Assembly: GCF_024494685.1 (NCBI RefSeq)
Contig: NZ_JANHDM010000001.1
Span: forward strand, 62,001 to 126,000
Origin: Halorubrum rubrum
GTDB taxonomy: Archaea > Halobacteriota > Halobacteria > Halobacteriales > Haloferacaceae
Direction: 5' to 3'
Length of the DNA: 64,000 nt
The stretch's first letter is position 1; every line of letters begins with the position of its first letter. The notes beneath the pieces were generated by a model. That model searched no databases. It was not told the DNA's origin and saw nothing but the letters and a program-made list of their open reading frames with translations. Positions 6,331-47,207 of this stretch are shown here, in pieces. A program made the translations under genes and the position numbers.

Positions 6331-7620
6331 ATGACACGTGGGTTCGACACCCGGAGTCTCCATGCCGGGTCGGGCACGGACCCGGCGACGGGGGCTCGTG
6401 CGACGCCGATCCATCAGACGACGTCCTACGCGTTCGAGGACGCCGACGCGGCGGCGGACCTGTACGCGCTCCGGGCCGACGGCGACGTCTACTCCCGCGT
6501 CTCGAATCCGACCGTTCGCGCCCTCGAGAGTCGGATCGCCGACCTCGAGGGCGGGTCCGGTGCGGTCGCGACCGCCTCCGGAATGGGCGCGTTCGACGCG
6601 ATCACGACGGTGCTCGCGAGCGCCGGCGACAACGTCGTCGCCAGCGAGGAGATGTACGGCGGCACCGGGACGCACCTCACCACCGTCGCGAACCGCCGCG
6701 GGGTCGAGACCCGCCTCGTGGAGACTACCGACTACGAGGGGTACGCCGCGGCGATCGACGACGACACCGCCTTCGTCCACGTGGAGACGCTCTCGAACCC
6801 CTCCCTCGTCACGCCCGACTTCGAGCGGCTCGCGGGGATCGCCCACGAGCACGCGGTCCCGCTCGTCGTCGACAACACGTTCGCGACGCCGTACCTCTGC
6901 CGGCCGATCGAGCACGGCGCGGACGTCGTCTGGGAGTCGACGACCAAGTGGATCACCGGCAACGGCACCACCGTCGGCGGGATCGTCGTCGACGGCGGCA
7001 CCTTCCCGTGGGACCACCCGGACGCGGAGTACGAGGAACTCTCCGGGGAGTCGCCGGCGTTCCCGATCGACTTCGTCGAGCGGTTCGGCGACGCCGCCTT
7101 CGCGAACGTCGTCCGCCAGCGGGCGGTCCGGCCGACCGGAAGCCAGCAGTCCCCGTTCGACGCCTGGCAGACCCTCCAGGGCGTGGAGACGCTGCCGCTC
7201 CGAATGGACCGTCACTGCGAGAACGCCCGCCGGGTCGCCGAGTACCTCCGCGACGACGACCGGGTCGACTGGGTGACGCATCCGGGCTTCGAGGACCACC
7301 CGACCCACGACGACGCGACCGCGTATCTGCGAGGATACGGAGGGATGATCACGTTCGGTGCCGCCGGGGGTTATGAGGCCGCGAAGGCCCTGTGTGAATC
7401 CGTCGACCTCGCGAGCTTCCTCGCGAACATCGGCGACGCCAAGACGCTGGTTATCCACCCCGCCTCGACCACGCACGCACAGCTCGACGAGGAGGCGCGG
7501 CAGGCCGCGGGCGTCCGGGCGGACATGGTTCGGCTCTCGGTCGGCATCGAGGACGCCGCGGACGTGATCGCGGACCTCGACGCCGCGCTCGGGACGGCGG
7601 CGACGTCGACGGAGGCGTGA
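6331..7620 (+). CDS. metY: O-acetylhomoserine sulfhydrylase (PLP enzyme)
   Basis: A 429-aa member of the Cys/Met-metabolism PLP family. It should make homocysteine from O-acetylhomoserine and sulfide in the cytoplasm. PLP-binding Lys206 lies in [11 protein letters not shown], and Asp181 in [12 protein letters not shown] should contact the pyridine nitrogen. The N-terminus [20 protein letters not shown] is typical of MetY rather than cystathionine lyases. The stop lies 2 nt before the metX start, so the two genes form one methionine-synthesis operon in which MetX supplies the acetylated substrate. The promoter palindrome at 6288 may regulate both. Confidence 0.93.
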
Positions 7621-7622
7621 GA

Positions 7623-8912
7623 ATGGCGGCCACACCCACCGATTCAGGCGTCGCGACCCTCGGGGAGTTCACCTTCGAGTGCGGCCGGTCGATTCCGAAC
7701 CTCCGGGTCGGCTACGAGACGTACGGCGAGTTCGACGGCGACAACGTCGTGTTGGTGTGTCACGCGCTCACCGGCAGCCAGAACGTCGCCCGGACGCCGG
7801 ATCGCGACGTGGACGCCGGCCAGGCCGGGCAGGCGCGCGCGTGGTGGGACGACGTGGTCGGTCCGGGGAAAGCGATAGACACGACCGAGTACTACGTCGT
7901 CTGCGCGAACGTCCCCGGTTCCTGTTACGGCACGTCGGGACCGGCCAACGAGCGGCCCGCGGAGCTCGATCTCCCCGGCGAGGCGCCCGACCACGACCGT
8001 TGGGGGACGGCGTTCCCGCCGGTTCAAGTCGAGGACTGGGCGCGCGCGCAGCGTCGGCTGCTCGACCACCTCGGCGTCGGCCGGCTCCGGGCGGTCGTCG
8101 GCGGGAGCGTCGGCGGGATGAACGTCCTCGAGTGGGCGAAACGCTACCCCGACGACGTCGACCTCGTCGTCCCCGTCGCCGCCGCCGCTCGGCTCGACGC
8201 GCAGTGTCTCGGGCTCGACGCCATCGCGCGCCGGGCGATCCGCGCGGACCCGAACTGGCGGGGCGGCGACTACTACGGCGAGAACCGCGACTCGCCCGAC
8301 ACCGGGCTGGCGATGGCCCGCCAGATGGGCCACGTGATGTACCTCTCGAAGGCGTCGATGGAGCGGAAGTTCGGCCGGCGCTCGGCCGGCCGCGACTCGC
8401 TGAGCCGCGAACAGGGCGACCTCGGGCTCGAGGCCGACCCCGCGGCCGCCTTCTTCCCGTACCGCGAGGTGGAGTCGTACCTCGACTATCAGGCGGAGGG
8501 GTTCGCGGAGCGGTTCGACGCCAACAGCTACCTCTATCTCACGCGCGCGATGGACGAGTACGACCTCGCCGCCGGCTACGGCTCCGACGCCGACGCGCTC
8601 GCGGCCTTCGAGGGCGAGGCGCTCCTACTGAGCTTCACCGGCGACTGGCACTTCACGGTCGAGCAGGCCGAGTCGGTCGCGACCGCCTTCCGCGAACGCG
8701 ACGTCCCCGTCGCCCATCACGTGATCGACTCCGACCACGGCCACGACGCGTTCCTCGTCGAACCGGAACGCGTCGGCCCGCCGCTCCGCGACTTCCTCGC
8801 CGACGGCGTCGAGGGCCGCGCCGTCGACGACGTGAGTGGAGACGACGAGGAAGCGGAGCCCGACTGCGACCCGGACCACGCCCCGGTCCACTCCAGCCTG
8901 TTCGGGGGGTGA
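7623..8912 (+). CDS. metX: Homoserine O-acetyltransferase
   Basis: A 429-aa alpha/beta-hydrolase-fold enzyme that acetylates homoserine with acetyl-CoA. The nucleophile is Ser162 in [12 protein letters not shown]. The Asp of the triad lies in SFTGDWHF and the His in DSDHGHDAF. The MetX hallmark ALTGSQ is at about residues 48-53, and [12 protein letters not shown] follows. I chose the ATG at 7623, just after the metY stop; a GTG at 7617 is possible. The last 30 residues are an acidic tail without domain features. It is co-transcribed with metY. Confidence 0.92.
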
Positions 8913-8986
8913 GCGAAGCGCAGGGACGCGCCGGATGTGGGTGGAGGAAACGGTGGTTGAGGCTGACGCTGTCGGCGGTGGCGTGC

Positions 8987-9087
8987 CTGCGAGCGCCCGC
9001 TAGGGCGCGAGCAGACCGCGAGGGACGCCACGAGCGCTTGAAAAGCGCGAGTGGCGAGGCTGGGGAGGCGTGAGGTGCGGTGCTGTG
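8987..9087 (+). repeat. Structured intergenic element, copy 1
   Basis: This lies 75 nt behind metX and holds two stem-loops and a conserved box. Hairpin 1 (8987-9014) has outer stem CTGC/GCAG, a GA facing GA, inner stem GCGCCC/GGGCGC and loop GCTA. Hairpin 2 (9027-9055) has outer stem GCCAC/GTGGC, again GA facing GA, inner stem GCGCTT/AAGCGC and loop GAA. The box GAGGCTGGGGAGGCG follows at 9056-9070. Copies near 12548 and 18015 keep this plan with different paired bases (see findings). No ORF here looks real. Confidence 0.7.
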
Positions 9088-9103
9088 CGGTTCGGGTGGG
9101 ATT

Positions 9104-9215
9104 CAAAGGGGCAGTCGCGAGGAGCGCACAGGCGACGTAAGCACCACAGGGAGCGAACGAAGTGAGCGACCGAGGAGCACAGCGAGCGTGCGCGCTCCTC
9201 GCGACTGGGGCTTTG
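9104..9215. repeat. Long interrupted inverted repeat
   Basis: The left arm CAAAG-GGG (9104-9111) plus a 16-nt stretch beginning CAGTCGCG (9112-9127) pairs with 9192-9215. The 16 bp are perfect. Then comes a GGG opposite GGG internal loop, and CAAAG pairs with CTTTG. About 64 nt separate the arms. A cruciform or a long RNA hairpin could form. The right arm is reused as the start of the tandem repeat unit at 9201. Confidence 0.7.
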
Positions 9216-9368
9216 GAGACGTTCACCGTGTCGACGACGACCGAGTACCGAGCGACTGGGGCTTTGGAGACGTTCACCGTGTCGACGACGACCGAGTACC
9301 GAGCGACTGGGGCTTTGGAGACGTTCACCGTGTCGACGACGACCGAGTACCGAGCGACTGGGGCTTTG
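9201..9368. repeat. Tandem repeat, 51-bp unit, 3.3 copies
   Basis: Identical 51-bp units lie at 9201-9251, 9252-9302 and 9303-9353, followed by a 15-nt partial copy. Each begins GCGACTGGGGCTTTGGAG and ends GACCGAGTACCGA. As 51 is a multiple of three, reading frames run through on both strands as 17-residue repeats, but none has a credible start or domain, so I treat the stretch as non-coding. Perfect identity between units points to recent expansion. Confidence 0.9.
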
Positions 9369-9436
9369 CTGATGTCCACTACATCGGAAACGAGATCGGA
9401 CGTATCGACTCGACTTCTCTCGGAACGGACGTATTA

Positions 9437-9524
9437 GGGCGGGTTCGAACCACGGTCGCTTCCGTTCGCTCGCGAGGCTCGCTCACCTCCCGCTCACCTC
9501 CCGCTCCCTGGTTCGAACCCGCCT
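9437..9524. repeat. tRNA T-arm-like inverted copies beside tRNA-Val
   Basis: GGGCGGGTTCGAACC at 9437-9451 is identical to 15 nt of the neighbouring tRNA-Val 3' half (9571-9585, same orientation). GGTTCGAACCCGCC at 9511-9524 is the inverted copy. Between them lie GC-rich repeats including GCTCACCTCCC twice. They could be relics of integration at the tRNA gene or simply a hairpin. The rest of 9369-9563 shows nothing else. Confidence 0.4.
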
Positions 9525-9563
9525 CGCATACATTTCTGTGACTCACTTCGTTCGTCCCAGAAA

Positions 9564-9637
9564 TGGGCTCGGGCGGGTTCGAACCGCCGACCTCAGCCTT
9601 GTAAAGGCCGCGTCATAACCAGCTAGACCACGAGCCC
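9564..9637 (-). tRNA. tRNA-Val (anticodon TAC)
   Basis: Reading the minus strand, the acceptor arm GGGCTCG pairs with CGAGCCC. An anticodon stem CGGCC/GGCTG encloses the 7-nt loop TTTACAA, so the anticodon is TAC (valine). The T-arm contains GGTTCGAACC. The discriminator base is A at 9564; CCA is not encoded, as is common in archaea. No intron is visible. Confidence 0.95.
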
Positions 9638-9697
9638 TCGTCGGAGGCAGCCGCCGCGAGCGGAAAACGGTTTCTGTCTCGGTTGCGAACCTCGGCC

Positions 9698-10177
9698 GTG
9701 AACCGTCGCTTTCCCGCGCTGACCACCGCCGCCATCGTCGTCTTCGTCCTCGCCGCGCTCGTGGTCGCCACCGCCCCGACGATCCTGATCTCCGAGTACG
9801 ACACGACCACGGTGGAGGCGGTCGACGCCGAGACGGGCGAGAGGCTCGCGACCGTCGAGGCACGGGTCGCCGACGGCCCGATGAAACGCTACGTCGGCCT
9901 CTCGGCGACCGACGAGCTCGACGACGACGAGGGAATGCTGTTCGTCCACCCCGAGTCCGGCGAGCACGGCTACGTGATGCGCGACATGGCCTTCGCCATC
10001 GACATGGTGTTCGTCGCCGAGGACGGAGAGATCACCTCGATCCGCGAGGCGGAACCCGAGTCGCGCCCGCTCACGACCTACGAGGGGACCGGAACGTACG
10101 TCCTCGAGGTCCCGAGGGGATGGAGCGCCGACAACGGGGTCGAGCCGGGCGACGAGCTCCAGTTCGATCTCGCCTGA
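9698..10177 (+). CDS. DUF192 family membrane-anchored protein
   Basis: About 159 aa starting at GTG 9698. One N-terminal membrane segment (about residues 7-27) anchors a DUF192 domain. The domain has GPMKRYVGLS, GMLFVHP and the MRDMAFAIDMVFVAEDGEI core, then VLEVPRGW near the end. DUF192 proteins are small beta-rich proteins, in archaea mostly extracellular and membrane-tethered, with no established activity. The gene is just downstream of, and divergent from, tRNA-Val. Confidence 0.82.
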   Translation: MNRRFPALTTAAIVVFVLAALVVATAPTILISEYDTTTVEAVDAETGERLATVEARVADGPMKRYVGLSATDELDDDEGMLFVHPESGEHGYVMRDMAFAIDMVFVAEDGEITSIREAEPESRPLTTYEGTGTYVLEVPRGWSADNGVEPGDELQFDLA

Positions 10178-10262
10178 CGCTCGATTCACGACTCTCGACT
10201 CCTGGTGCCCCCCCGAACGCACCGACGAAACGCTTTCACGCCTCGCTCGCGTGCGACCCCGT

Positions 10263-10676
10263 ATGACCGGTCCCCTCCGACGCGCCGCCTGGAACCTCCG
10301 GTACCGCTGGCGGCGGGTGTTCGCGCTCTGCGTCGTCGGCGCGGGCGTGCTCGCGCCCTTCCTCACGAACCTCTGGTGGACGCTGCCGCTCGTCTGGTTC
10401 CTCGGCCTGTTCGTCGTCCTCCCCGTGCTCCACACCCTCGCGAAGCCGCTGCCGTCGCCGGACGACGGGGGCGGCGATCGGGGGGCCGAAACCGACCCCG
10501 CGCTCGACGCGCTACGCGAGCGCTACGCTCGCGGCGAGATCGACGAGCGCGAGTTCGAGCGGAAGCTGGACCGGCTGCTCGAAACGGAGGGCGCGGAGGT
10601 CGCGGAGCGTGACCGCGACGTGGCCGCCCGGATCCGCGGGACCGTCGAGCGCGAGCTCGAGCGCGTCCGGGAGTGA
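10263..10676 (+). CDS. SHOCT-domain membrane protein
   Basis: A 137-aa protein with two hydrophobic segments (about residues 18-36 and 39-58) followed by a polar tail. The tail holds a SHOCT motif: LDALRERYARGEIDEREFERKLDRLL. SHOCT is a short C-terminal oligomerisation motif common in haloarchaeal membrane proteins. The final 30 residues are likely helical and charged. ATG 10263 is used, the first codon before a basic stretch. The specific role is unknown. Confidence 0.8.
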   Translation: MTGPLRRAAWNLRYRWRRVFALCVVGAGVLAPFLTNLWWTLPLVWFLGLFVVLPVLHTLAKPLPSPDDGGGDRGAETDPALDALRERYARGEIDEREFERKLDRLLETEGAEVAERDRDVAARIRGTVERELERVRE

Positions 10677-10776
10677 GTCGGGTGGACGCCGAGGATCGAT
10701 CCGACCGGAGTTCCGCGTTCCATCGGGGCCGACGGGACCGACCGTTTCTTGAGCGCGCGCCCCGGAGAGTGGGGTA

Positions 10777-11838
10777 ATGGACGGACCGCTTTGGATCGAC
10801 GCGCACGCGCCGGCGCTCGACGAGATCCGGCAAGACGAGGCCCGCGAGCGGCTCGGGCGGGCGGTCGACGAGCCGATGAACCTCGTCGTTCAGGGGCCGC
10901 CGGGAGCCGGGAAGACGGCCGCGACGCGGGCACTGGCGCGGGAGTCGCACGCCGACCACGAGAGCGACCTGATCGAGATCAACGTCGCGGACTTCTTCGG
11001 CCGGACGAAAAAGGAGATCCGGACGGATCCCCGCTTCGAGGGCTTTCTCCAGGGGAGAAGCCGGATGGCGAAACGCGACATGATAAACCACGTCCTCACC
11101 GAGTCGGCCTCCTACGCGCCGATGTCGGGCGAGTACAAGACGGTGCTTCTCGACAACGCCGAGTCGATCCGTGAGGACTTCCAGCAGGCGCTCCGGCGGG
11201 TGATGGAGAAACACCACCGCACGACCCAGTTCGTGGTCGCCACCCGTCAGCCCTCGAAGCTCATCGCGCCGATCCGGTCGCGCTGTTTCCCGATCCGGCT
11301 GCGCGCGCCGACGACCGACGAGACCATCGACGTGCTCCAGACGATCTGCGACCGCGAGGGCGTCGAGTACGACGCCGACGGGCTGGAGTTCGTCGCCAGC
11401 GCGGCCGGCGGCGACCTCAGACGCGCGATCCTCGCGGCGCAGACGACCGCCGTGGAGGGCGGAGAGATCACCATGACGACCGCCTACGAGACGCTGGGAG
11501 ACGTCGGCGACGACGACGCGATCCGCGAGGCGCTCGCGGCCGCCCGCGAGGGGGAGTTGAAGGACGCCCGGAGCGCCCTCGACGACCTCCTCGACGAGGG
11601 GGGGTACGACGGCCAGGGGCTGCTCCGCGAGACGCTGCGGGTCGCGCGGGCGGGCTCGGCGTACGGCGGCGACGACCTCGCGCGGCTTCACAAGCTCGCC
11701 GGCGAGGCGGACCTGGCGCTGACCGAGGGGCTCGACGACCGGCTCCACCTCACCCACCTGCTCGCGGCGTGGGCGGCCGGACGAACGGACCTCCGCGCCG
11801 CGTTCCACGAACCCGAACCCGCGGAGGCCGAGCCGTGA
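10777..11838 (+). CDS. Replication factor C small-subunit paralogue (clamp loader ATPase)
   Basis: A 353-aa AAA+ ATPase with Walker A GPPGAGKT at residues 40-47. The Walker B strand reads TVLLDNAESI, so the usual DEAD-like acidic box is altered to LDNAE. Sensor 2 and the arginine-finger SRC motif are present (IAPIRSRCFPIRL), followed by the RFC lid and collar helices. It should help load the PCNA clamp. Haloarchaea typically encode two small RFC subunits and one large; this resembles the divergent small one. The asd start overlaps its stop (GTGA), a coupling I recall from other haloarchaea. Confidence 0.85.
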   Translation: MDGPLWIDAHAPALDEIRQDEARERLGRAVDEPMNLVVQGPPGAGKTAATRALARESHADHESDLIEINVADFFGRTKKEIRTDPRFEGFLQGRSRMAKRDMINHVLTESASYAPMSGEYKTVLLDNAESIREDFQQALRRVMEKHHRTTQFVVATRQPSKLIAPIRSRCFPIRLRAPTTDETIDVLQTICDREGVEYDADGLEFVASAAGGDLRRAILAAQTTAVEGGEITMTTAYETLGDVGDDDAIREALAAAREGELKDARSALDDLLDEGGYDGQGLLRETLRVARAGSAYGGDDLARLHKLAGEADLALTEGLDDRLHLTHLLAAWAAGRTDLRAAFHEPEPAEAEP

Positions 11839-12467
11839 GCCGGAACCCCCCGCTCGCGCGATTCCTCCCGTTCGACGTGGTCGACGACGCCTGGCGGCTG
11901 GCGCTCGTCCCCGCGCTCGCGGCGGCCGTCACCCTCCCCTTCCTCCCGCCGGTCGGATTCGGGCTGGTCGCGGTCACACTCGGCGTCCTCTGGTTCCATC
12001 GCGACCCGGAGCGGACGCCGCCGGACCCGGAGGGGGCGGTCGTCTCGCCCGCCGACGGCACCGTGAGCGTCGTGCGCGAGGAGGGGACACGGCTCCGCGT
12101 CGGGGTGTACATGAGCGCGGCCGACGTCCACGTCAACCGCGCGCCGATCGCCGGGCAGGTGCGGGAGGTGCGGCACCGCCCCGGCGCGAACCGCCCGGCG
12201 TTCGACAAGGAGTCCGAGCGCAACGAGCAGGTCGCGATCGACTTCGGCGAGTACGAGCTGCTCGTCATCGCCGGCTGGTTCGCCCGCCGGATCCACCCCT
12301 CGGTCGAACCCGGCGACCGCGTCGGGCGGGGCGACCGCGTCGGCCACGTCTCCTTCGGCTCGCGCGCCGACGTGGTGTTGCCGGCGGACGTCGACCGCGA
12401 GGACCTCCTCGTGCGCGAGGGCGACGCCGTCCGCGCGGGCGAGACGATCGTCGCCGAGCGAGAGTGA
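11835..12467 (+). CDS. asd: Archaetidylserine (phosphatidylserine) decarboxylase
   Basis: A 210-aa short-type decarboxylase. It starts at GTG 11835, overlapping the RFC gene stop. Two N-terminal hydrophobic stretches give way to the PSD domain with GVYMSAADVHVNRAPIAG. The C-terminal FGSRADVVLP carries the Gly-Ser where the proenzyme self-cleaves to form its pyruvoyl group. It should convert archaetidylserine to archaetidylethanolamine at the membrane. Length and the FGSR motif fit the archaeal PSD branch well. Confidence 0.87.
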   Translation: MSRNPPLARFLPFDVVDDAWRLALVPALAAAVTLPFLPPVGFGLVAVTLGVLWFHRDPERTPPDPEGAVVSPADGTVSVVREEGTRLRVGVYMSAADVHVNRAPIAGQVREVRHRPGANRPAFDKESERNEQVAIDFGEYELLVIAGWFARRIHPSVEPGDRVGRGDRVGHVSFGSRADVVLPADVDREDLLVREGDAVRAGETIVAERE

Positions 12468-12946
12468 GGCCGGACGGAGAGGCGTGGATCCGACCCGCGA
12501 ACCGATACCCGACTGCGGCGGTGTCGGTACTCCGCGGAGGCGTGCGCCGGTGAGCGCCCGACGGGCGCGAACCGTCCGCGCGAGGGAGACGGCGCGTCGG
12601 CGCGACCGCGTCGCGGTCTCCGTGCCGGCGCGTCCGTCGAGGCTGGGGAGGCGCGAGGTGTGGGGCGGAGGCGGAGACGGAGCGGGGCGAGCCGGAGACG
12701 GAGCGGGGCGAGCCGAAGGCGGAGCGGGGCGGAGGCGGTCTCCGCGTCGACGGCGTCGGTCGTGATCGTCCCGTGTTTCTCCCCCGTGTTTCTCGTCGGT
12801 GATCTCGATCGCTCGTGGTGGCGGCCACGGCCGCCCCGTGACCGTCCCGACCGACTCGACGGTCCCGACCGTCCCGATCGCGGGCCGCCCGCGTCGATCC
12901 CGTCCCGGCCATAGCGTTTTGTGTGCTCGCGGAGACGGGACCGTGT
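12468..12946. other. Gene-free stretch holding element copy 2
   Basis: 479 nt between asd and the amphi-Trp gene. They hold structured element copy 2 (12548-12664) and a short GC-rich tandem repeat: 21-nt units beginning GGAGACGGAGCGG at 12673-12693 and 12694-12714, then a degenerate third. The rest (about 12760-12946) has no credible coding frame. Confidence 0.6.
12548..12664 (+). repeat. Structured intergenic element, copy 2
   Basis: About 80 nt behind asd and in the same direction. Hairpin 1 (12548-12574) has outer stem CGGT/ACCG, GA facing GA, inner stem GCGCCC/GGGCGC and loop GAC. Hairpin 2 (12588-12638) is longer than in copy 1: GACGG/CCGTC, a bulged T, a 9-bp helix with one G-U pair, and a tip GACCGC/GCGGTC. 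The box GAGGCTGGGGAGGCG follows at 12639-12653, as in the other copies. Confidence 0.65.
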
Positions 12947-13606
12947 ATGTCCGAAGAGAGCGAGGAGACGGTCCACGAGTCCGAACGGTCGCGCAGCCGA
13001 CAGGCGCTCGCCACCTACTTCCGCCGGATCGCGAGGGCGCTCGGCCGCGGCGAGCCGGTTCCCGTCGACGACGCCGGCACGGTCACCGTCGACCCGCCGG
13101 CCGAGCCCGACCTGGAGGTCGAGGTCGAACGCGATGGCGACACGGTCAGTCTCGACCTCCAGATGGAGTGGGTCGAAGCGGAGGGCGACGTCGACACCGA
13201 CGCCGCCGCGAGCAAGGCGACGTTCGAGGTGTACACGGACGCCGCGGACGACTGGCGCTGGCGGCTCGTCCACGACAACGGCAACATCATCGCCGACGGC
13301 GGCGAGGGGTACTCGGACCGGCGGGACGCCGAGAACGGCATCGAGTCCGTGAAACGGAACGCGCCGGGCGCGCACGTCGTCGACCTGAAACGCGTGGAGG
13401 AACCGCCCGAGGAGAGCGGCAGCAACGCGATCTTCGAGGTGTTCGAGGACAAGGGGGGCAAGCGGCGCTGGCGGCTCGTCCACGACAACGGCAACGTGAT
13501 CGCAGACGGCGGACAGGGGTACGCCTCCAAGCGGAACGCGGTCAACGGCCTCCACAGCGTGAAGGAGAACGTACCGGGCGCGGCGGTCGAGGAGGTCGAC
13601 GGGTAG
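12947..13606 (+). CDS. Amphi-Trp domain protein with two DUF1508 (HVO_2922-type) repeats
   Basis: 219 aa from ATG 12947. The N-terminal part (about 1-85) is an amphi-Trp domain, seen as the basic ERSRSRQALATYFRRIAR helix followed by LDLQMEWVE. Two YegP/DUF1508 modules follow (about 90-145 and 155-212). Each has the pattern FEVY/F, WRWRLVHDNGN, IADGG.GY and a final helix SVK.N.PGA. Such modules are small stress-linked folds of unknown biochemical function. Both repeats are intact and similar to one another, so an internal duplication is likely. Confidence 0.87.
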   Translation: MSEESEETVHESERSRSRQALATYFRRIARALGRGEPVPVDDAGTVTVDPPAEPDLEVEVERDGDTVSLDLQMEWVEAEGDVDTDAAASKATFEVYTDAADDWRWRLVHDNGNIIADGGEGYSDRRDAENGIESVKRNAPGAHVVDLKRVEEPPEESGSNAIFEVFEDKGGKRRWRLVHDNGNVIADGGQGYASKRNAVNGLHSVKENVPGAAVEEVDG

Positions 13607-13674
13607 GGAACGCCGGCGAGTCGCCGCGGAGCCGAACGGAGTCGTTTAACCCGTCGGCCGGCCACCCTCCTCGC

Positions 13675-14721
13675 ATGACGAACGCACTGGAGGTCGAGAA
13701 CCTTCAGAAGAGCTACGGGGGCCTCGACGCCCTGAAGGGGGTGTCGCTGACCGTTCCCGAGGGGTCCTTCTTCGGGCTGCTCGGCCCCAACGGGGCGGGG
13801 AAGACGACGTTCATCAACGTCCTCGTCGGGCTCGTACGCGCCTCCGGCGGCGACGCGCGGGTCTTCGGCCACGACGTCGAGGCGGACTATCGGGAGGCGC
13901 GCGACCGAATCGGGCTCGCCCCACAGGAGTTCAACGTCGACCGCTTCTTTCCGATCCACGAGGTGTTAGAGCACAAGGCGGGGTACCACGGCGTCCCGCG
14001 GGACGTGGCGGCCGAGCGCGCCGAGCGTGCGCTCAAGCAGGTCGGGATCTACGACAAGCGCGACACCCGCTTCGACTGGCTCTCCGGCGGGATGAAACGC
14101 CGGTTCATGTTGGCGCGGGCGCTCGTCACCGACCCCGATCTCCTGATCCTCGACGAGCCCTCCGCCGGCGTCGACGTCCAGCTGCGCCGCGACCTGTGGG
14201 ACCTCGTTACGGAGCTGAACGAGGAGGGAACGACCGTGCTCCTCACCACCCACTACATCGAGGAGGCGGAGCGGCTCTGTGACGAGGTCGCCATTCTCGA
14301 CCGAGGGCGGGTCGTCACCGTCGCCTCCCCGGCGGAACTGATGGACCGCGGGACCGACCGGGTCGTCGTCACGCTCCGGGACCCGCCGGCGTCCGCGGGC
14401 GCGCTCTCGGAGACCCTCCCGGTCGACGACCGGATCGAGGACGCCGATCTCGAGGAGGACCGCCTCGTCGTCACCGCCCGGCAGGGCGGGCTGGTCGCGC
14501 CCGACCTCGTCCGCGAACTCGACCGCGCGGGTCACGAGATCCTCGACATGGAGATCAAACGGACCTCCCTCGAGGAGGTGTTCGTGGACATGACTCGCCA
14601 CGGCGAGGAGAACGAAAGCGCGGACGGGGAGGAACCCGACGGACTCGCCGACGATGCCGAGGACGCCGCCGACGCGCGCGTCGAGACCGCCGCGGCCGGC
14701 TGTGGGGAGGGCTCCCGATGA
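13675..14721 (+). CDS. ABC-2 type exporter, ATP-binding subunit
   Basis: 348 aa from ATG 13675. Walker A GPNGAGKT is at residues 37-44, the signature LSGGMKRRFMLARAL lies near the middle, and Walker B LLILDEPSAGVD follows, then the H-loop TTHYIEEAE. The C-terminal 100 residues form the extra domain seen in DrrA/CcmA-type exporters, ending in an acidic low-complexity tail. The stop overlaps the start of the permease gene by 4 nt, so the two work as one exporter. The substrate (drug, lipid or polysaccharide) is unknown. Confidence 0.92.
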   Translation: MTNALEVENLQKSYGGLDALKGVSLTVPEGSFFGLLGPNGAGKTTFINVLVGLVRASGGDARVFGHDVEADYREARDRIGLAPQEFNVDRFFPIHEVLEHKAGYHGVPRDVAAERAERALKQVGIYDKRDTRFDWLSGGMKRRFMLARALVTDPDLLILDEPSAGVDVQLRRDLWDLVTELNEEGTTVLLTTHYIEEAERLCDEVAILDRGRVVTVASPAELMDRGTDRVVVTLRDPPASAGALSETLPVDDRIEDADLEEDRLVVTARQGGLVAPDLVRELDRAGHEILDMEIKRTSLEEVFVDMTRHGEENESADGEEPDGLADDAEDAADARVETAAAGCGEGSR

Positions 14722-15515
14722 GCGGCGACGCCGGAGCCGTCGACCTCACCGGCTTCCTCACGCTCACCAAACGGGAGGTCCTGCGGTTCCTGCGGCGGCC
14801 GAGCAACACGTTCGCGCCGCCCTTTATCACCAACGTGCTGTACTTCTCCGTGTTCGGCGTCATCCTCGGCGAGCGCGTCGGGACGATCACGGGCGTGCCG
14901 TACATCCTCTTCATCCTGCCCGGACTGGTGGTGCTCGGCGCGGTGTCGAACAGCTTCGAGAACGCCTCCTTCTCCATCTTCCACGGGCGCTGGAACGAGT
15001 ACATCCACGAGGTGCTCACCTCGCCGCTGTCGTACGCGGGGATGGTGGGCGCGTACGTCCTCGCGGCCGCGACCCGCGGGGTCCTCGTCGGCGGGCTCAT
15101 CGCCGCGATCGGGTGGACGATCGTCACCGCGCTGTTCCGACCCGTTCCGATCGAGGAGCCGCTGTACCTGCTCGCGTTCCTGCTCGTCATCACGCTGCTC
15201 TTCGCCAGCCTCGGCGTGATCGGCGGGCTCGCCGCCAGCGACTTCGACGACCTCACCGTGATGAACCAGTTCATCCTCCGGCCGCTCGTCTTCTTCGGCG
15301 CGGTGTTCTACTCGCTCGAGGACCTCACGCCCCTCCTGCGTGATATCTCGCTTCTCAACCCGATGGTGTACATGGTCAACGGCGTCCGATACGGCTTCCT
15401 CGGCGTCGCGGAGGTCGACCCCCGGCTCTCGCTCGTCGTGCTCGCCGGGATGACCGCGGCGGCGGTCGGGATCGACGTGCTGCTGTTCAAACGCGGCTAC
15501 GGGCTGACCGAGTGA
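14718..15515 (+). CDS. ABC-2 type exporter, permease subunit
   Basis: A 265-aa integral membrane protein with six predicted hydrophobic segments and the ABC-2 family layout. The short cytoplasmic start TKREVLRFLRRPSNTFAPP is an amphipathic elbow helix, and the NPMVYMVNGVRYGFLG motif near residue 215 is typical of DrrB/NodJ permeases. It overlaps the ATPase gene (ATGA), so translation is coupled. It forms the membrane channel of the exporter; the cargo is not evident. Confidence 0.9.
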   Translation: MSGDAGAVDLTGFLTLTKREVLRFLRRPSNTFAPPFITNVLYFSVFGVILGERVGTITGVPYILFILPGLVVLGAVSNSFENASFSIFHGRWNEYIHEVLTSPLSYAGMVGAYVLAAATRGVLVGGLIAAIGWTIVTALFRPVPIEEPLYLLAFLLVITLLFASLGVIGGLAASDFDDLTVMNQFILRPLVFFGAVFYSLEDLTPLLRDISLLNPMVYMVNGVRYGFLGVAEVDPRLSLVVLAGMTAAAVGIDVLLFKRGYGLTE

Positions 15516-15582
15516 GTCGGCGGCACCCCCGCATCCCGGACCGCACCGCTTATTCGCCGCGGCTCTCTACCTCGGGCCGGAC

Positions 15583-16806
15583 ATGGACGCGCTCCACGCC
15601 AAGTACCCGTTCTTCGAGGGGGCCCGCGACGCCGTCGCCGGGGCGTCGGCGTCGCTGCCGGAGCTCGTCGCCGCCGACGCGCCGGCGGTCGACCGGGCCC
15701 GTGAGCGCGTCGAGCGGGCGTTACTCGAGGGCACGGTCGAGCCCGAGGCGGGCGCGTTCGGCGGGTCGGCCGTCGACCACGACGCCCGCGCGGAGCTGCT
15801 CTCGTACCCGATCGCGCGGATCCTCGTCTCGCTTCTCGACTCCGAGCCCGCCGTCGAGAAGTACGCGGCCGCGGAGGCGGCGACCGCGCTCTCCCGGCTC
15901 CGGGCGGACCTCGAGCGCGACGACGAGCTCAGATCGACGCCGACCCCGACCGTCGACCTCGACGACGTACTCGGCGAGTTCGACCTGTCGGACGCCGTCC
16001 GCGCCGAGCCGGTTCGTGGGAGCCGCGATCCGAGCCACTACCGGATCGACGTCGGCCCCTACCTCCGGTTGAGTTCGCCGTCGTGGGGCGACTCGTGGCG
16101 GCTCGTCAACCGGGCGCTCGCGAACGGGGCAGTGCGGATCACGCGCGAGGAGCTGCTTGAGGCGCTCGGGTCCGCGATCGAGGCGCGGGTCCGAGAGGGG
16201 CTTCCCTTCGATCTGGAGACCGGCGAGGGGATCGCGGCGGAGTTGGAGTCGCGCGTGTCGGAGCTGAAACGGCTGCTCTCCGAGCGCACCTACGCCGGTC
16301 CGATCGACGTCGTCGCGCCCGATCTGTTCCCGCCGTGTATGGAGAACCTGATCGAGAAGGCCGAACGCGGCGTCGAGCTGTCGGGTCCGGAGAGCTTCGC
16401 GCTGATGGCGTTTCTCGTCGGGATCGGGATGTCGCCCGACGAGGTGGTCGCCTTCTGTGCGGACACGAGCCTCGACGCCGAGGGGATCCGGTATCAGACG
16501 GAGTACCTCGCGGACGACCGCGGGACGCAGTACCCGCCGCCGACGTGCGAGACGCTCTCGAACTACGGGATCTGTCACAACGAGGCGGACCACATGCGCG
16601 TCGCCGCCGACCCCCTCTCGTACTACGAGACGCGGGTAAACGACGTCGACGGCGACGAGATCGTCGACTGGCGGGAGGGGCGCGACGAGGGAGAGCGCGG
16701 AGGCGGGGCGGGCGACGCCGACGGCAGGGCGGCTGACGCCGACGGCAGGGCGGCTGACGCCGACGGCAGGGCGAGTGTCGATGAGGGAGAACCCGTCGAG
16801 AAGTGA
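15583..16806 (+). CDS. priL: DNA primase large subunit
   Basis: A 407-aa PriL, the regulatory partner of PriS in RNA/DNA primer synthesis. The N-terminal half is the helical large-subunit domain starting MDALHAKYPFFEGARDAV. The C-terminal half has the four cysteines of the 4Fe-4S cluster: in LFPPCMENL, AFCADTS, PTCETLSN and GICHNEADHM. The last 45 residues are a low-complexity acidic tail containing DADGRAA three times (DNA 16714-16776), which lies beyond the conserved domain and may vary between strains. Confidence 0.93.
   Translation: MDALHAKYPFFEGARDAVAGASASLPELVAADAPAVDRARERVERALLEGTVEPEAGAFGGSAVDHDARAELLSYPIARILVSLLDSEPAVEKYAAAEAATALSRLRADLERDDELRSTPTPTVDLDDVLGEFDLSDAVRAEPVRGSRDPSHYRIDVGPYLRLSSPSWGDSWRLVNRALANGAVRITREELLEALGSAIEARVREGLPFDLETGEGIAAELESRVSELKRLLSERTYAGPIDVVAPDLFPPCMENLIEKAERGVELSGPESFALMAFLVGIGMSPDEVVAFCADTSLDAEGIRYQTEYLADDRGTQYPPPTCETLSNYGICHNEADHMRVAADPLSYYETRVNDVDGDEIVDWREGRDEGERGGGAGDADGRAADADGRAADADGRASVDEGEPVEK
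16714..16776. repeat. 21-bp tandem repeat inside priL
   Basis: Three copies of a 21-bp unit beginning GACGCCGACGGCAGGGC (16714, 16735 and 16756). They stay in frame and encode DADGRAA; the third differs in its last bases. It lies outside the catalytic fold, so copy number is probably neutral. Confidence 0.9.
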
Positions 16807-16819
16807 GGTCGTCGGCCGC

Positions 16820-17035
16820 TCAGGCGTCGGAACCGTTCGAGCGGATGAGGTACGCGCCGACCAGTGCCATCAGCAACACGAATCCCGTGAGAAGCCCGAC
16901 CAGCGCGATCGCGCCGGATTCGGGAAGCGAGGAGCCGTCGAACGTGACGCCGATGGCGACCAGTCCGGCGACGAACACCGCCGCAGCCGCGAGCGAGACG
17001 GTGATCTGTCGACGCAGCTCCGCATCGATTTCCAT
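16820..17035 (-). CDS. Small two-helix membrane protein
   Basis: 71 aa from ATG 17035: a short charged N-terminus (MEIDAELRRQ), two hydrophobic helices (about 12-30 and 42-62) and the end IRSNGSDA. It has the look of a genuine haloarchaeal small membrane protein. It is convergent with priL, whose stop is 14 nt away. I do not recognise the family and assign no function. Confidence 0.6.
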   Translation of the reverse strand: MEIDAELRRQITVSLAAAAVFVAGLVAIGVTFDGSSLPESGAIALVGLLTGFVLLMALVGAYLIRSNGSDA

Positions 17036-17214
17036 GCCTCCGGTTCCCGTCGGCACTAAAAAAGGACTTCGATGGACGGGTCGCGATCCCGCCCGCGGAC
17101 AGGGAGATCCCACCGATCGACGACGGTCGACGGGGTGCCGACCGGCGATGGCCGACACGTTAAGCCCGAAGCGCCCGTACGTCGGGGCGAACCGGGCGCG
17201 TCCCGGCGAACGCC

Positions 17215-17964
17215 ATGACTCACAGACGGATCCCGCCGGCGTCGTTCGCGGTCGGCGAGCACGGCGGTGGAAGCGGCGGCGGAAACGACGGGAACCGCGG
17301 GGACCGCGACCCGGATCGCGACGACGCGAACTCCGGCGATGGGGACGACCCGACCGGCGAGGACGACACGGACCGCGACGACCGGAATCGCGAGGACGGC
17401 CGGTCCGAGCGGGCGAAACGGGAGCCGATGACGGTGCGCCCGCTCCGGGACCGCCGGTACGTCGTCGAGACGGACGGGGGGACCTACGTCGTCGCGCTCG
17501 ACGCCGGGACCTGTAGCTGTCCGGACCACGAGATCCGCGGGGAGCGGTGTAAACACCTCCGGCGCGTCGCCATCGAGGTGACGGAGGGACGAATCCCCGC
17601 CCCGGACGAGCGCGTCGGCGTCTGTGCGGTCTGCGGGGTCGAGACGTTCGTCCCGTTCGCGGCGTCCGGGCCGCGGCTGTGCGAGCGACACGACTTCGAG
17701 CGCGGCGACGCCGTGTACGACCGCGAGACGGGGAAGCTGCTCGTCGTCACCCGCGTCACGGCCCGGCGCGCCGACGAGTACCGGACCGACGAGGGGCGGA
17801 CGATCGAGGCGTACCCGACCAACGCGGCCTACGGGGCGCACGAGCCCGTCGTCGAGGCGGTGTACGCGGAGTCGCTCGGGCCCGCCCACGGGATCGACGA
17901 CGCCAGACGGTACGGGTTTCCGGCCTCGCGGCTGGTGCCGGTTGACGTCGCCCGTGAGGACTGA
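17215..17964 (+). CDS. SWIM zinc-finger protein
   Basis: 249 aa. A low-complexity Gly/Asp/Arg region (about 15-70) leads to a SWIM finger CSCPDHEIRGERCKHLRR (CxC...CxH) near residues 99-116. A second possible metal site follows: CAVC at about 138 with CERH at about 158. SWIM fingers bind nucleic acid or partner proteins. The C-terminal third is a globular domain I do not recognise. The start ATG 17215 is the first in frame, but a later start after the low-complexity region cannot be excluded. Confidence 0.8.
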   Translation: MTHRRIPPASFAVGEHGGGSGGGNDGNRGDRDPDRDDANSGDGDDPTGEDDTDRDDRNREDGRSERAKREPMTVRPLRDRRYVVETDGGTYVVALDAGTCSCPDHEIRGERCKHLRRVAIEVTEGRIPAPDERVGVCAVCGVETFVPFAASGPRLCERHDFERGDAVYDRETGKLLVVTRVTARRADEYRTDEGRTIEAYPTNAAYGAHEPVVEAVYAESLGPAHGIDDARRYGFPASRLVPVDVARED

Positions 17965-18014
17965 GCCCGGCGGGAGGACGTGCGTAGGGAGAATCTCGCC
18001 GAAGCCCCCACCGA

Positions 18015-18112
18015 CAGCACCGCACCTCGCGCCTCCCCAGCCTCGCGGTTCGCGGTTTCACCGCTCACCGCGTCCCTCGCGGGCTCCTCGCGAGCCGATG
18101 GCCCGCTCGGAG
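18015..18112 (-). repeat. Structured intergenic element, copy 3
   Basis: On the minus strand, 30 nt behind hjc. Hairpin 1 (18112 down to 18084) has outer stem CTCC/GGAG, GA facing GA, and a 7-bp inner stem with one G-U pair and a 3-nt loop. Hairpin 2 (18071 down to 18045) has outer stem GCGGT/ACCGC, GA facing GA, inner stem GCGGT/ACCGC and loop GAA. The box GAGGCTGGGGAGGCG follows. The remainder of 17965-18142 has nothing else I can support. Confidence 0.7.
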
Positions 18113-18142
18113 GCGCGCCCACCGCAGTACGTCAATGGCCGG

Positions 18143-18664
18143 TCACAACACGTCGAGGGCGTCCTCGACCGGCATGTGGCCGTCCCGGACGGCCTCGAGG
18201 ACCTCCCGACGCTCCTCGTCGGGGTCGGTCGCGACCTCCGCGAGGGTCACCTTCTCGGTCTCGCCGACGAACTCGGGGAAGTCGATGCCCTCGGCGAGCG
18301 CCGTCTCCTTTTTCACGCGGTAGGATCCGGCGTCGGTCGTGTAGAGGTCGCCCGGATGGAAGAAGTACCAGTCCTCGCGGTCGAACCGGACCGCGATGCG
18401 GGCCTTCGCGCCGAAGTTGCGCGCGAAGAACAGCAGCGCCTCCACCTCCTCGCCGGAGAGGTAGATCGGGTCGCCCGCGCTGGACTTCGCCTCGATCGCG
18501 TAGAAGGTATCGCCGTCGCCCGCGAGCACGTCGGGCAGCTCCCGCTCCGTCGCCGAGCCGCTGGCCGGCGCGCGCATCACGGCGAACCCCTTCTCGTCCA
18601 GCGCGTTGACCAGTTCGCGCTCGCGGCGGTCGCCCTTACGGTTCGCCGACACGGTCGCGGTCAC
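18143..18664 (-). CDS. hjc: Holliday junction resolvase Hjc
   Basis: A 173-aa archaeal Hjc that cuts four-way DNA junctions in recombination and fork repair. Its nuclease core is clear: [19 protein letters not shown] with the first catalytic Glu, then [21 protein letters not shown] with the Asp and E-x-K of the PD-(D/E)XK fold. GTG at 18664 is used; a second GTG four codons on is equally good. The C-terminal 60 residues ([20 protein letters not shown] onward) are an acidic extension beyond the minimal Hjc. Confidence 0.93.
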
Positions 18665-44824: not shown

Positions 44825-47207
44825 GTTTCAATCCCATGCTGGGGTTTTCAGGCTGTCTCGACGCTAACTGAAGGAACGCCGGAAGTGATCTGATAAGGTT
44901 TCAATCCCGTGCTGGGTTTTCAGGCTGTCTCGACATGACGCTCGGCGACGTCGCCCGGAGCGCCGTCGAGTTTCAATCCCGTGCTGGGTTTTCAGGCTGT
45001 CTCGACACCGGAGTTGACACATCATGAACGACGAGCAACAGCAGGTTTCAATCCCGTGCTGGGTTTTCAGGCTGTCTCGACTTGACCCGAGATGGATATC
45101 TGTAACTGAATCTTTTAGTTTCAATCCCGTGCTGGGTTTTCAGGCTGTCTCGACAGCGGTCCGCCACCAGTCGACGTGACAGAGCCCACAGTTTCAATCC
45201 CGTGCTGGGTTTTCAGGCTGTCTCGACTGATGTTCATCCGCCGCCAAACGTGATGAAGGAGGTTTCAATCCCGTGCTGGGTTTTCAGGCTGTCTCGACGC
45301 GATCGACGACGAACTCGACACGTCGTTCGCGAAAGTTTCAATCCCGTGCTGGGTTTTCAGGCTGTCTCGACCTCCGGTCGAAACAGCCACGCCGCCGTCA
45401 ACAAGTTTCAATCCCGTGCTGGGTTTTCAGGCTGTCTCGACTGCTTTGGAACGTTGGGTTGTCGATGGCCTTATCGTTTCAATCCCGTGCTGGGTTTTCA
45501 GGCTGTCTCGACAGCCGCCGATCGTCGCGTACGTCTCTCCCTGCGGTGAGTTTCAATCCCGTGCTGGGTTTTCAGGCTGTCTCGACCCGAACCCGAGTTC
45601 GGGCTGGAGGACCCCGACGTGTCGTTTCAATCCCGTGCTGGGTTTTCAGGCTGTCTCGACGCATCGCCGACCGAGGCAGCCGGGGCATCGTGCTGGTTTC
45701 AATCCCGTGCTGGGTTTTCAGGCTGTCTCGACGGACGCGGTCGTCGCCCGCCGTCTGCCACACTTCGTTTCAATCCCGTGCTGGGTTTTCAGGCTGTCTC
45801 GACCGACCCGCGAGAGAACGCGATCGACGTGTACGCCGCGTTTCAATCCCGTGCTGGGTTTTCAGGCTGTCTCGACCTTCGAGACGCGACTCGGGCGGTG
45901 CCGCCGCGTCCCGGTTTCAATCCCGTGCTGGGTTTTCAGGCTGTCTCGACCCGCGGTCATGGCGCGACCCTGACGCCGACGACGAGTTTCAATCCCGTGC
46001 TGGGTTTTCAGGCTGTCTCGACCGGCGGTGGATCGAACGGCAGGGCGTTCGTGAAACCGTTTCAATCCCGTGCTGGGTTTTCAGGCTGTCTCGACTCCCA
46101 CGCCGTCCCACCGTATCCCACGGAAGGCTTTGTTTCAATCCCGTGCTGGGTTTTCAGGCTGTCTCGACGTCGTCTCGTCGCCGCCCCAGTTGATCGCAGG
46201 CAGTTTCAATCCCGTGCTGGGTTTTCAGGCTGTCTCGACCGCGTCACGACCGCCCCCAATACATGACTGAAAAGTTTCAATCCCGTGCTGGGTTTTCAGG
46301 CTGTCTCGACCTCGCTGGCGAAATCGTCGACTGGATGAGCCAAGAGTTTCAATCCCGTGCTGGGTTTTCAGGCTGTCTCGACGTGCCCGCGGTGTGGCAA
46401 CGATACGGCCACGAACTCGTTTCAATCCCGTGCTGGGTTTTCAGGCTGTCTCGACATAGACGAATGACCCATATGTGTTTTCACTACCGAGTCGTTTCAA
46501 TCCCGTGCTGGGTTTTCAGGCTGTCTCGACGATATCCCAGCGTGTCGAATATCAACCCGATAGTATTGTTTCAATCCCGTGCTGGGTTTTCAGGCTGTCT
46601 CGACCACCACGGAACCCATAGCCACGATTAGGATGAAGAAGTTTCAATCCCGTGCTGGGTTTTCAGGCTGTCTCGACCGGAAACGACGCTACCGCCGTCC
46701 CATTCGTTAATCGTGTTTCAATCCCGTGCTGGGTTTTCAGGCTGTCTCGACCGAACCCGAGTTCGGGCTGGAGGGCCCCGACGTGTCGTTTCAATCCCGT
46801 GCTGGGTTTTCAGGCTGTCTCGACCGCCCGCCGCGATCTGATATACGTCCCCGTTATAGTTTCAATCCCGTGCTGGGTTTTCAGGCTGTCTCGACACCCG
46901 GAACCCCGTCCATAAAGTCAGCTTTCACCGACGTTTCAATCCCGTGCTGGGTTTTCAGGCTGTCTCGACCGGCACGGACGACCCGAACGAGTCCCGGCTC
47001 GTCGTGTTTCAATCCCGTGCTGGGTTTTCAGGCTGTCTCGACGTTAGAAGGTTCTAAACTGGTAGTCGTGGCGAACCCGTTTCAATCCCGTGCTGGGTTT
47101 TCAGGCTGTCTCGACTCCGAAGCCTCATCAAAGAGGATAAACGCATTTTTCCCTTCTTCGCTAGCGTCAGGTTTCAATCCCGTGCTGGGTTTTCAGGCTG
47201 TCTCGAC
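44825..47207 (-). CRISPR. Type I-D CRISPR array: 33 repeats, 32 spacers
   Basis: The 37-nt repeat on the plus strand begins GTTTCAATCCCGTGCTGG and ends GGCTGTCTCGAC. Its reverse complement ends ATTGAAAC, the usual 5' handle source, so crRNA is read leftwards and the leader is at the right. The leader-distal repeat (44825-44862) is degenerate: 38 nt with a G-to-A change and an extra G. All other repeats are identical as far as I can read. Spacers are 33-38 nt except the leader-proximal one (47116-47170, 55 nt). Spacers at 45587-45623 and 46752-46787 are near-duplicates. Confidence 0.98.

Follow-up and report, generated by a model that had tools for sequence, protein, structure and literature searches.

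Three copies of a modular repeat in the window

The window analysed here is a stretch of 64,000 nucleotides from the haloarchaeon Halorubrum rubrum (assembly GCF_024494685.1, contig NZ_JANHDM010000001.1, positions 62,001 to 126,000). Behind three of its genes lie copies of a repeat built from two hairpins, a linker and a conserved box, which a first-pass annotation had described as a three-copy family of co-varying elements placed in sense 3' of genes. All three copies are present at the places and with the plan that it gave, the box being exact at 9056, 12639 and 18030, and all are in sense, approximately 20-80 nt past a stop codon. The names proposed for the neighbouring genes also fit, since 7617-8912 encodes an alpha/beta hydrolase, consistent with metX, 11769-12467 a member of the phosphatidylserine decarboxylase family that could be archaetidylserine decarboxylase (asd), and 18143-18664 Hjc. 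The family is real, as is the selection on its fold, but three copies is far too few, as the genome holds 96 matches to a covariance model; the reading as a gene-linked 3' element is partly supported. Likewise, the intervals originally described correspond to module A of each copy, one module of an element that extends further. Copy 1 consists of modules A, B and C, copy 3 of A with a remnant of B/C, and copy 2 of A with neither B nor C. The features are listed below, with scores from the covariance model (R1), which was built from 14 copies.

8975..9080, plus strand: copy 1, module A, comprising hairpin 1, AGGGA linker, hairpin 2 and box (9056-9070); R1 117.6 bits, E 3.3e-22
9081..9097, plus strand: copy 1, G-rich linker, in which GGG at 9094-9096 is the first G tract (from the sequence and the counts of GGG before the core)
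9098..9215, plus strand: copy 1, module B, GGGATTCAAAGGGGCAG ... CTGGGGCTTTG, a long hairpin with GGG tracts facing each other (core match at 9098-9114 and 9205-9215; predicted fold)
9201..9368, plus strand: copy 1, module C, 3.3 tandem 51-bp units repeating the 3' arm of B, unit 1 overlapping B (Tandem Repeats Finder)
12534..12663, plus strand: copy 2, module A with a long hairpin 2 (box 12639-12653), B not found; R1 42.5 bits, E 2.8e-6, and sequence
18020..18124, minus strand: copy 3, module A (box 18030-18044); R1 96.8 bits, E 8.6e-18, and sequence
17999..18009, minus strand: copy 3, remnant of the B/C 3' arm (GGGGGCTTCGG; motif match)

Folding of single copies is unremarkable (z of -2.2, -0.1 and -2.6 for the sense strand of module A in copies 1 to 3, and of -3.4, -0.3 and -3.2 for the antisense strand), and the case for structure therefore rests on covariation.

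Fold and modules of the element

From 5' to 3', module A comprises GGUGG, hairpin 1, AGGGA, hairpin 2 and the box GAGGCUGGGGAGGCGUGAGG. Hairpin 1 consists of a basal CGCG/CGCG helix, a short stem, usually GA opposite GA, and an inner stem; it is longer than first described, because a CGCG that had been counted as unpaired linker forms base pairs with the CGCG on the 5' side. By inspection of printed copies, this basal helix lengthens and co-changes in loci L005, L018, L027 and L030. A three-way junction proposed by RNAalifold, with the box pairing to the 5' end, was dropped because the 5' CGCG co-changes with the linker CGCG (for example, CGUGCG/CGCACG in L005 and CGCGUG/CACGCG in L030). Hairpin 2 is freely swapped between short GA types, perfect stems, a GGA/GGA type and nested forms. 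GA opposite GA, which had been said to occur always, is present in hairpin 1 of all three window copies (copy 2 having, as described, a long hairpin 2) and in hairpin 1 of 102 of 109 aligned copies, but it is not universal and is found in hairpin 2 of only 81 of the 109. Kink-turns carry tandem sheared G-A pairs beside a 3-nt bulge. In both hairpins of the present element, GA/GA forms a symmetric 2x2 loop between stems without such a bulge, and several copies lacking GA have Watson-Crick pairs at those positions, so that the suggested likeness to kink-turns is not borne out.

The covariation proposed from three copies was examined in a larger alignment (A4) of 109 copies fitted to the model, drawn from 96 sources, with matches above E 0.0001 dropped and with genus loci L058 and L092 (duplicates of L008 and L059), L087, L095, L101, L102 and L105-L107 left out. 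In this alignment, 98.7% of 2,476 cells are paired, both sides have changed in 20 of 24 pairs, and both hairpins covary. Double changes number 432 cells against a shuffled mean of 109.7, and 0 of 500 shuffles reach any of five measures, while shifting the partner by 1-3 columns lowers pairing to 21-58%. The claim of a selected structure was thus upheld.

Mismatches of the two wobble types are unequal. On the G-rich strand of module A, G·T pairs occupy 38 cells and A·C pairs 9, these being cells of related copies rather than independent events, and the basal helix accounts for 20 of the 38 G·T cells. In module B, the first nine inner pairs have 28 G·T against 9 A·C. A palindrome read alike from both strands would give equal counts, and the excess of G·T implies that the fold of one strand matters. 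Selection seems to keep the G-rich strand foldable, whether as RNA or as single-stranded DNA.

Module B lies 3' of the box, where a G-rich linker is followed by GGGACTCAAAGGGGCAG ... CTGGGGCTTTG, forming a long hairpin with facing GGG tracts. Its core occurs 58 times in the genome (0 for the reversed control), with 56 of these within 117 bp 3' of a same-strand A match, and a stem is found behind 105 of 176 boxes. The fourth inner pair of these 105 stems is C-G in 47, T-A in 37, T-G in 18, C-A in 2 and G-C in 1, and one outer A-T pair is G-C in 19. Within the genus, an RYTCRA core lies no more than 190 nt from the box in 141 of 177 cases; GGG stands just 5' of 120 of these 141 cores, a second GGG further 5' of 111, and GGGG 3' of 118. 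At 20 variant-core loci outside the genus, an extra GGG occurs 5' of the core in 18 and GGGGCYTTC 3' of it in 19, and these two counts are not circular because neither motif was part of the search pattern. Some copies are without B and run directly into its 3' arm. Locus L262 has, at approximately 396-425, a minimal module B (GACTGAAAGGGGCCGGGGGCTTTC) with hardly any hairpin between the G tracts.

The conserved four-tract motif invites a further, speculative proposal, to which we give little credence: the B core (GGG-N-GGG-ACTGAAA-GGGG-(covarying hairpin)-GGGG-CUUUC) could form a three-tetrad G-quadruplex with the hairpin as its last loop, and the molar potassium inside haloarchaeal cells would keep it stable. 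The other modules, A and C, would dock onto it, the folded G-rich strand, either RNA or single-stranded DNA, would drive mobility and recombination, and B would be the core of a class-wide haloarchaeal nucleic-acid device. Since G-quadruplexes have been shown in Haloferax volcanii, according to the available part of a published report (PMC12873603), a quadruplex function of the four tracts is directly testable in high-potassium cells.

Tandem C-like units of approximately 51 bp, repeating the 3' arm of B, are also present in L027, L046 and L096-L098. The tandem C units of some congeners contain TTTATAA, which we take to resemble a haloarchaeal TATA box. In the long form of the element, the left end is TCARTACAG and the right end GAAACAYCCGT...AGCA, in many cases with GTTTC after it; of 21 occurrences of the right-end motif, 20 are located 3' of a same-strand A match. 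By eye, a hairpin may be present on the left of the long form, and GAAAC...GTTTC makes one on the right; many copies lack these ends. Double-hairpin cassettes of approximately 45-54 nt (by eye), each with two hairpins, are nested in hairpin 1, hairpin 2 and module B in both orientations. One such cassette, T1 (CAGCG-stem-CTGGCAG-stem-CGA, approximately 45-50 nt with ends CAGCG and GGCGA), is represented by 26 distinct sequences across the loci examined, whose stems differ yet are complementary. Four of these 26 come from head-to-tail arrays outside the large element (L088 6200-6362 and L090 5865-5916). In the metX element of genome G108, module B holds two cassettes that are absent from the same place in the window copy.

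Distribution, gene context and turnover of sites

The exact box occurs 61 times in the 3.2-Mb genome (33 forward, 28 reverse) against 0 for the reversed pattern, which excludes chance. The covariance-model search that had been recommended was run on the home genome, where 150 of 10,502 first-look candidates were scored and 96 copies were obtained at E <= 0.001, 55 on one strand and 41 on the other, extending the family well beyond three. Among 292 haloarchaeal genomes, 82 have R1 matches, including 35 of 35 in Halorubrum and 47 of 257 outside the genus, the latter mostly weak; 13 candidates per genome were scored in this survey, and copy numbers there are lower bounds. The matches listed for a 15-nt part of the box (117 named stretches) comprise 63 from Halorubrum, 23 from other haloarchaea and 31 from bacteria, the last probably due to chance.

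A variant B core, the 16-mer GGGACTGAAAGGGGCC, is more widespread, being found in 109 of the 292 sampled genomes and 41 of 77 genera, with up to 65 copies, and with 0 for the reversed pattern among the matches listed. Outside Halorubrum, the clearest locus with module A is L258 (R1 E 4.5e-5), with weaker examples in L252, L055 and L057 (E 0.012-0.045), while other loci have tandem CGGTGACAC units upstream in place of module A. In other genera, the inner part of B can be structured quite differently, and tandem CGGTGACAC...CCACCG units can stand ahead of the module, as in L246 and L249-L251. Among plasmid records, the Halobaculum form has 37 matches and the window form 3. Two viral contigs contain a 17-nt box string, with R1 scores of only 14.3 and 13.9 bits (E 0.26 and 0.31); these were taken as chance, and the part of L242 inspected is a GGC-rich low-complexity stretch.

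The orientation seen in the window does not extend to the genome. In raw counts, based on genes called by a simple codon-usage script, 60 home copies have 32 upstream genes in sense and 28 in antisense, and at 42 of these copies the downstream gene is directed towards the element. Among 88 congener copies, counted after exclusion of those less than 900 bp from the end of their locus and of a single copy with no called gene beside it, 61 have the upstream gene in sense, a modest bias that includes the metX orthologues, and 45 have a convergent downstream gene. A consistent sense placement 3' of genes, as the first-pass annotation had proposed, therefore fails genome-wide; of the two refuting conditions that it named, the one on orientation counts against it and the one on covariation does not. 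By region, 147 combined copies are divided into 53 convergent, 72 tandem and 22 divergent. No recurrent neighbour protein was found among 235 proteins compared, with at most 2 other copies sharing a homologue, and no common promoter upstream of the copies is visible in the AT profile.

Individual sites differ in their persistence. At the metX site, a same-orientation element is present in 14 of 20 congeners, in one of them only at E 0.024, and a remnant occurs in L101. In L093, L097 and L098, the metX stop codon and the start of the metX-site element are separated by TTTTAAATA, a possible terminator or promoter. Genome G015 lacks the asd and hjc copies, and G008 has both, the hjc copy in decayed form (R1 E 0.012). 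At C2:91052, the home genome and G009 carry a copy and G015, G008, G294 and G108 are empty (34-84 bp compared with approximately 432), and C2:82342 is occupied in 5 of 5 relatives.

Copies also coincide with rearrangements in the three regions compared. Compared with G009, G015 and G008, the home genome carries positions 1395-7400 of L264 in inverted orientation, and G294 shows one junction of the relatives' arrangement. At the home breakpoints lie two copies of opposite orientation, a third being near the second, and R1 detects copies or a fragment at 5 of 6 of the relatives' junctions (L277, L278, L279, L280 and L282; none at L281 of G008). Breaks in L266 are likewise at copies, with one matching junction (L283, in G008) free of a copy, and the flank beyond C2:93847 is located elsewhere in all five relatives. 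Judged from these alignments, breakpoints at copies would fit homologous recombination between copies, making the copies a likely cause of Halorubrum inversions.

A proposed mobile palindromic element and its alternatives

With moderate confidence, we interpret the copies as a high-copy, gene-less, modular and non-autonomous mobile palindromic element of haloarchaea, resembling the palindrome-associated transposable elements (PATEs), that spreads from one intergenic region to another and has a strand-specific fold. Mobility is suggested by the 96 matches on both strands with little tie to the upstream gene and no recurrent neighbour protein; by the filled and empty states of C2:91052 and the asd and hjc sites lacking a copy in G015; and by conserved outer ends, A and B travelling together, plasmid relatives and nested cassettes. 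The interpretation also draws on the strand-specific fold (G·T excess in A and inner B) and on the L264 inversion between opposed copies. An enzyme provided in trans would act on the folded strand, in the form of single-stranded DNA or an RNA intermediate, as in PATEs related to IS200/IS605, and resident copies may exchange modules and cause inversions through homologous recombination.

Several observations weigh against mobility or against the fold evidence on which it draws. The mobilising enzyme was not found, none of the 17 TnpB matches of the home genome has the modules at its ends, and the phage records searched gave no match to the element. The metX site (14 of 20) and C2:82342 (5 of 5) are more stable than expected of an active transposon, and stems are still paired at old sites, which could mean function in place. 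The sole empty site read, C2:91052, has no clean target duplication and no sharp boundary, its flanks being too diverged. The rows of A4 are related and were fitted to the model, so that the shuffles overstate significance. In module B, the five outer pairs show no G·T excess (1 G·T, 2 A·C), the rule that a row show 6 standard pairs out of 7, G·T being accepted as one, mildly tilts the stem counts toward G·T, and counts of the GGG/GGG loop are circular, as GGG was in the search pattern.

It is rather unlikely, in our assessment, that the copies are instead functional 3' untranslated regions or stand-alone RNAs, as the first-pass annotation held, in which a transcribed fold controls 3'-end formation, stability or protein binding. 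The strong covariation and RNA-like G·T skew would suit such a function, as would the persistence of the metX copy in its orientation, the sense bias upstream of congener copies and the relative poverty of divergent regions (22 of 147). However, nearly half of the home upstream genes (28 of 60) are antisense, sites turn over among close species, B and C are often absent, and hairpin 2 is freely swapped. We consider it more improbable still that the fold is under no selection at all, gene conversion and template switching that copies both arms having made and kept GC-rich palindromes. Modules and hairpins have clearly been swapped between copies, and the relatedness of the rows noted above also speaks for this, but conversion leaves unexplained the excess of G·T over A·C, the constant single-stranded motifs beside variable stems, and the 432 double-change cells at 98.7% pairing.

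Membership of a known autonomous family, with the copies as ends or omega-RNA of an IS200/IS605 (TnpB) transposon, is improbable, only slightly less so than conversion. Palindromic ends with variable stems recall PATEs, and two TnpB genes lie near a copy. Nevertheless, 15 of the 17 home TnpB loci are without module A and without the tested B/C motifs; the other 2 have R1 matches (E <= 0.01) or these motifs beside the TnpB genes, not at their ends, so that IS605-type end palindromes were not found. An omega-RNA at the tnpB 3' end is difficult to reconcile with 96 copies against 17 TnpB matches, both occurring together in just 2 loci. The statement that no named family resembles the element was supported as regards Rfam, where no match to it at gathering score was obtained in the window or in 6 further loci, and a permissive scan of 8500-18500 gave none over a copy. 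According to PMC12558985, the library includes the omega-RNA (sotRNA) families RF02656 and RF02657, and these had no match in the window or the 6 further loci. At L111 and L122 (contig starts C19 and C20), TnpB genes stand near a copy with a GCGCTTTAGCGC-like palindrome between.

Double hairpin elements (DHE) are known from Allomyces. The available part of a sponge mitochondrial study (PMC2800124) describes repetitive and double hairpin elements that, like the present family, are scattered GC-rich hairpins, single or double, some of them nested or in tandem; there, stems are conserved and loops vary, whereas here stems vary with compensation and linkers are constant. The box and B core strings were not found in the literature searched, in which the topically nearest paper concerns PATEs and SMRs of Haloquadratum (PMC3119063). 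As far as its available text describes them, the PATEs of Haloquadratum walsbyi are likewise short, without a transposase gene, heterogeneous, high in copy number and haloarchaeal, and other small repeats insert into their palindromes. PATEs have palindromes near both ends, which the long form may share, lack terminal inverted repeats and do not duplicate the target on insertion. The present element, at approximately 100-480 bp, is also too short to encode a transposase. It differs from PATEs, as portrayed there, in its conserved single-stranded box, facing GGG tracts and covarying multi-module fold, and in that the link to IS605-type ends was not found. Although the family resembles PATEs in how it works, we do not class it among them, because this tested link fails in its own genome. 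The nested cassettes recall SMR-A, in the same available text a small repeat nested in the palindromes of larger elements with target duplication not seen; SMR-A is approximately 110 bp with prominent terminal inverted repeats, whereas the cassettes are shorter and a terminal inverted repeat was not seen in them.

By modular plan only, the element is comparable to the BOX repeats of Streptococcus pneumoniae, which the accessible portion of PMC3049150 presents as composite intergenic repeats with a repeated module, a predicted RNA fold and all gene-flank orientations. Sequences and host differ, boxB is tandem in mid-element whereas here the 3' unit is tandem (the middle and the tail module, respectively), and the present family has variable stems with constant loops. 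An expressed PATE of 489 bp, described for Halorubrum lacusprofundi and its virus HRTV-DL1 (PMC10544981, in part), shares the genus and is close in length to the long form, the comparison being by description. The family adds a folded repeat of approximately 100 copies per genome, which matches no Rfam family and which a single exact 16-mer suffices to trace to 41 of the 77 sampled haloarchaeal genera, and offers a tractable case of strand-specific selection on an apparent mobile palindrome, with nested hairpin cassettes open to comparison of filled and empty states.

Elsewhere in the window, positions 44825-47207 on the minus strand hold a CRISPR array with 33 matches to Rfam CRISPR-DR56.

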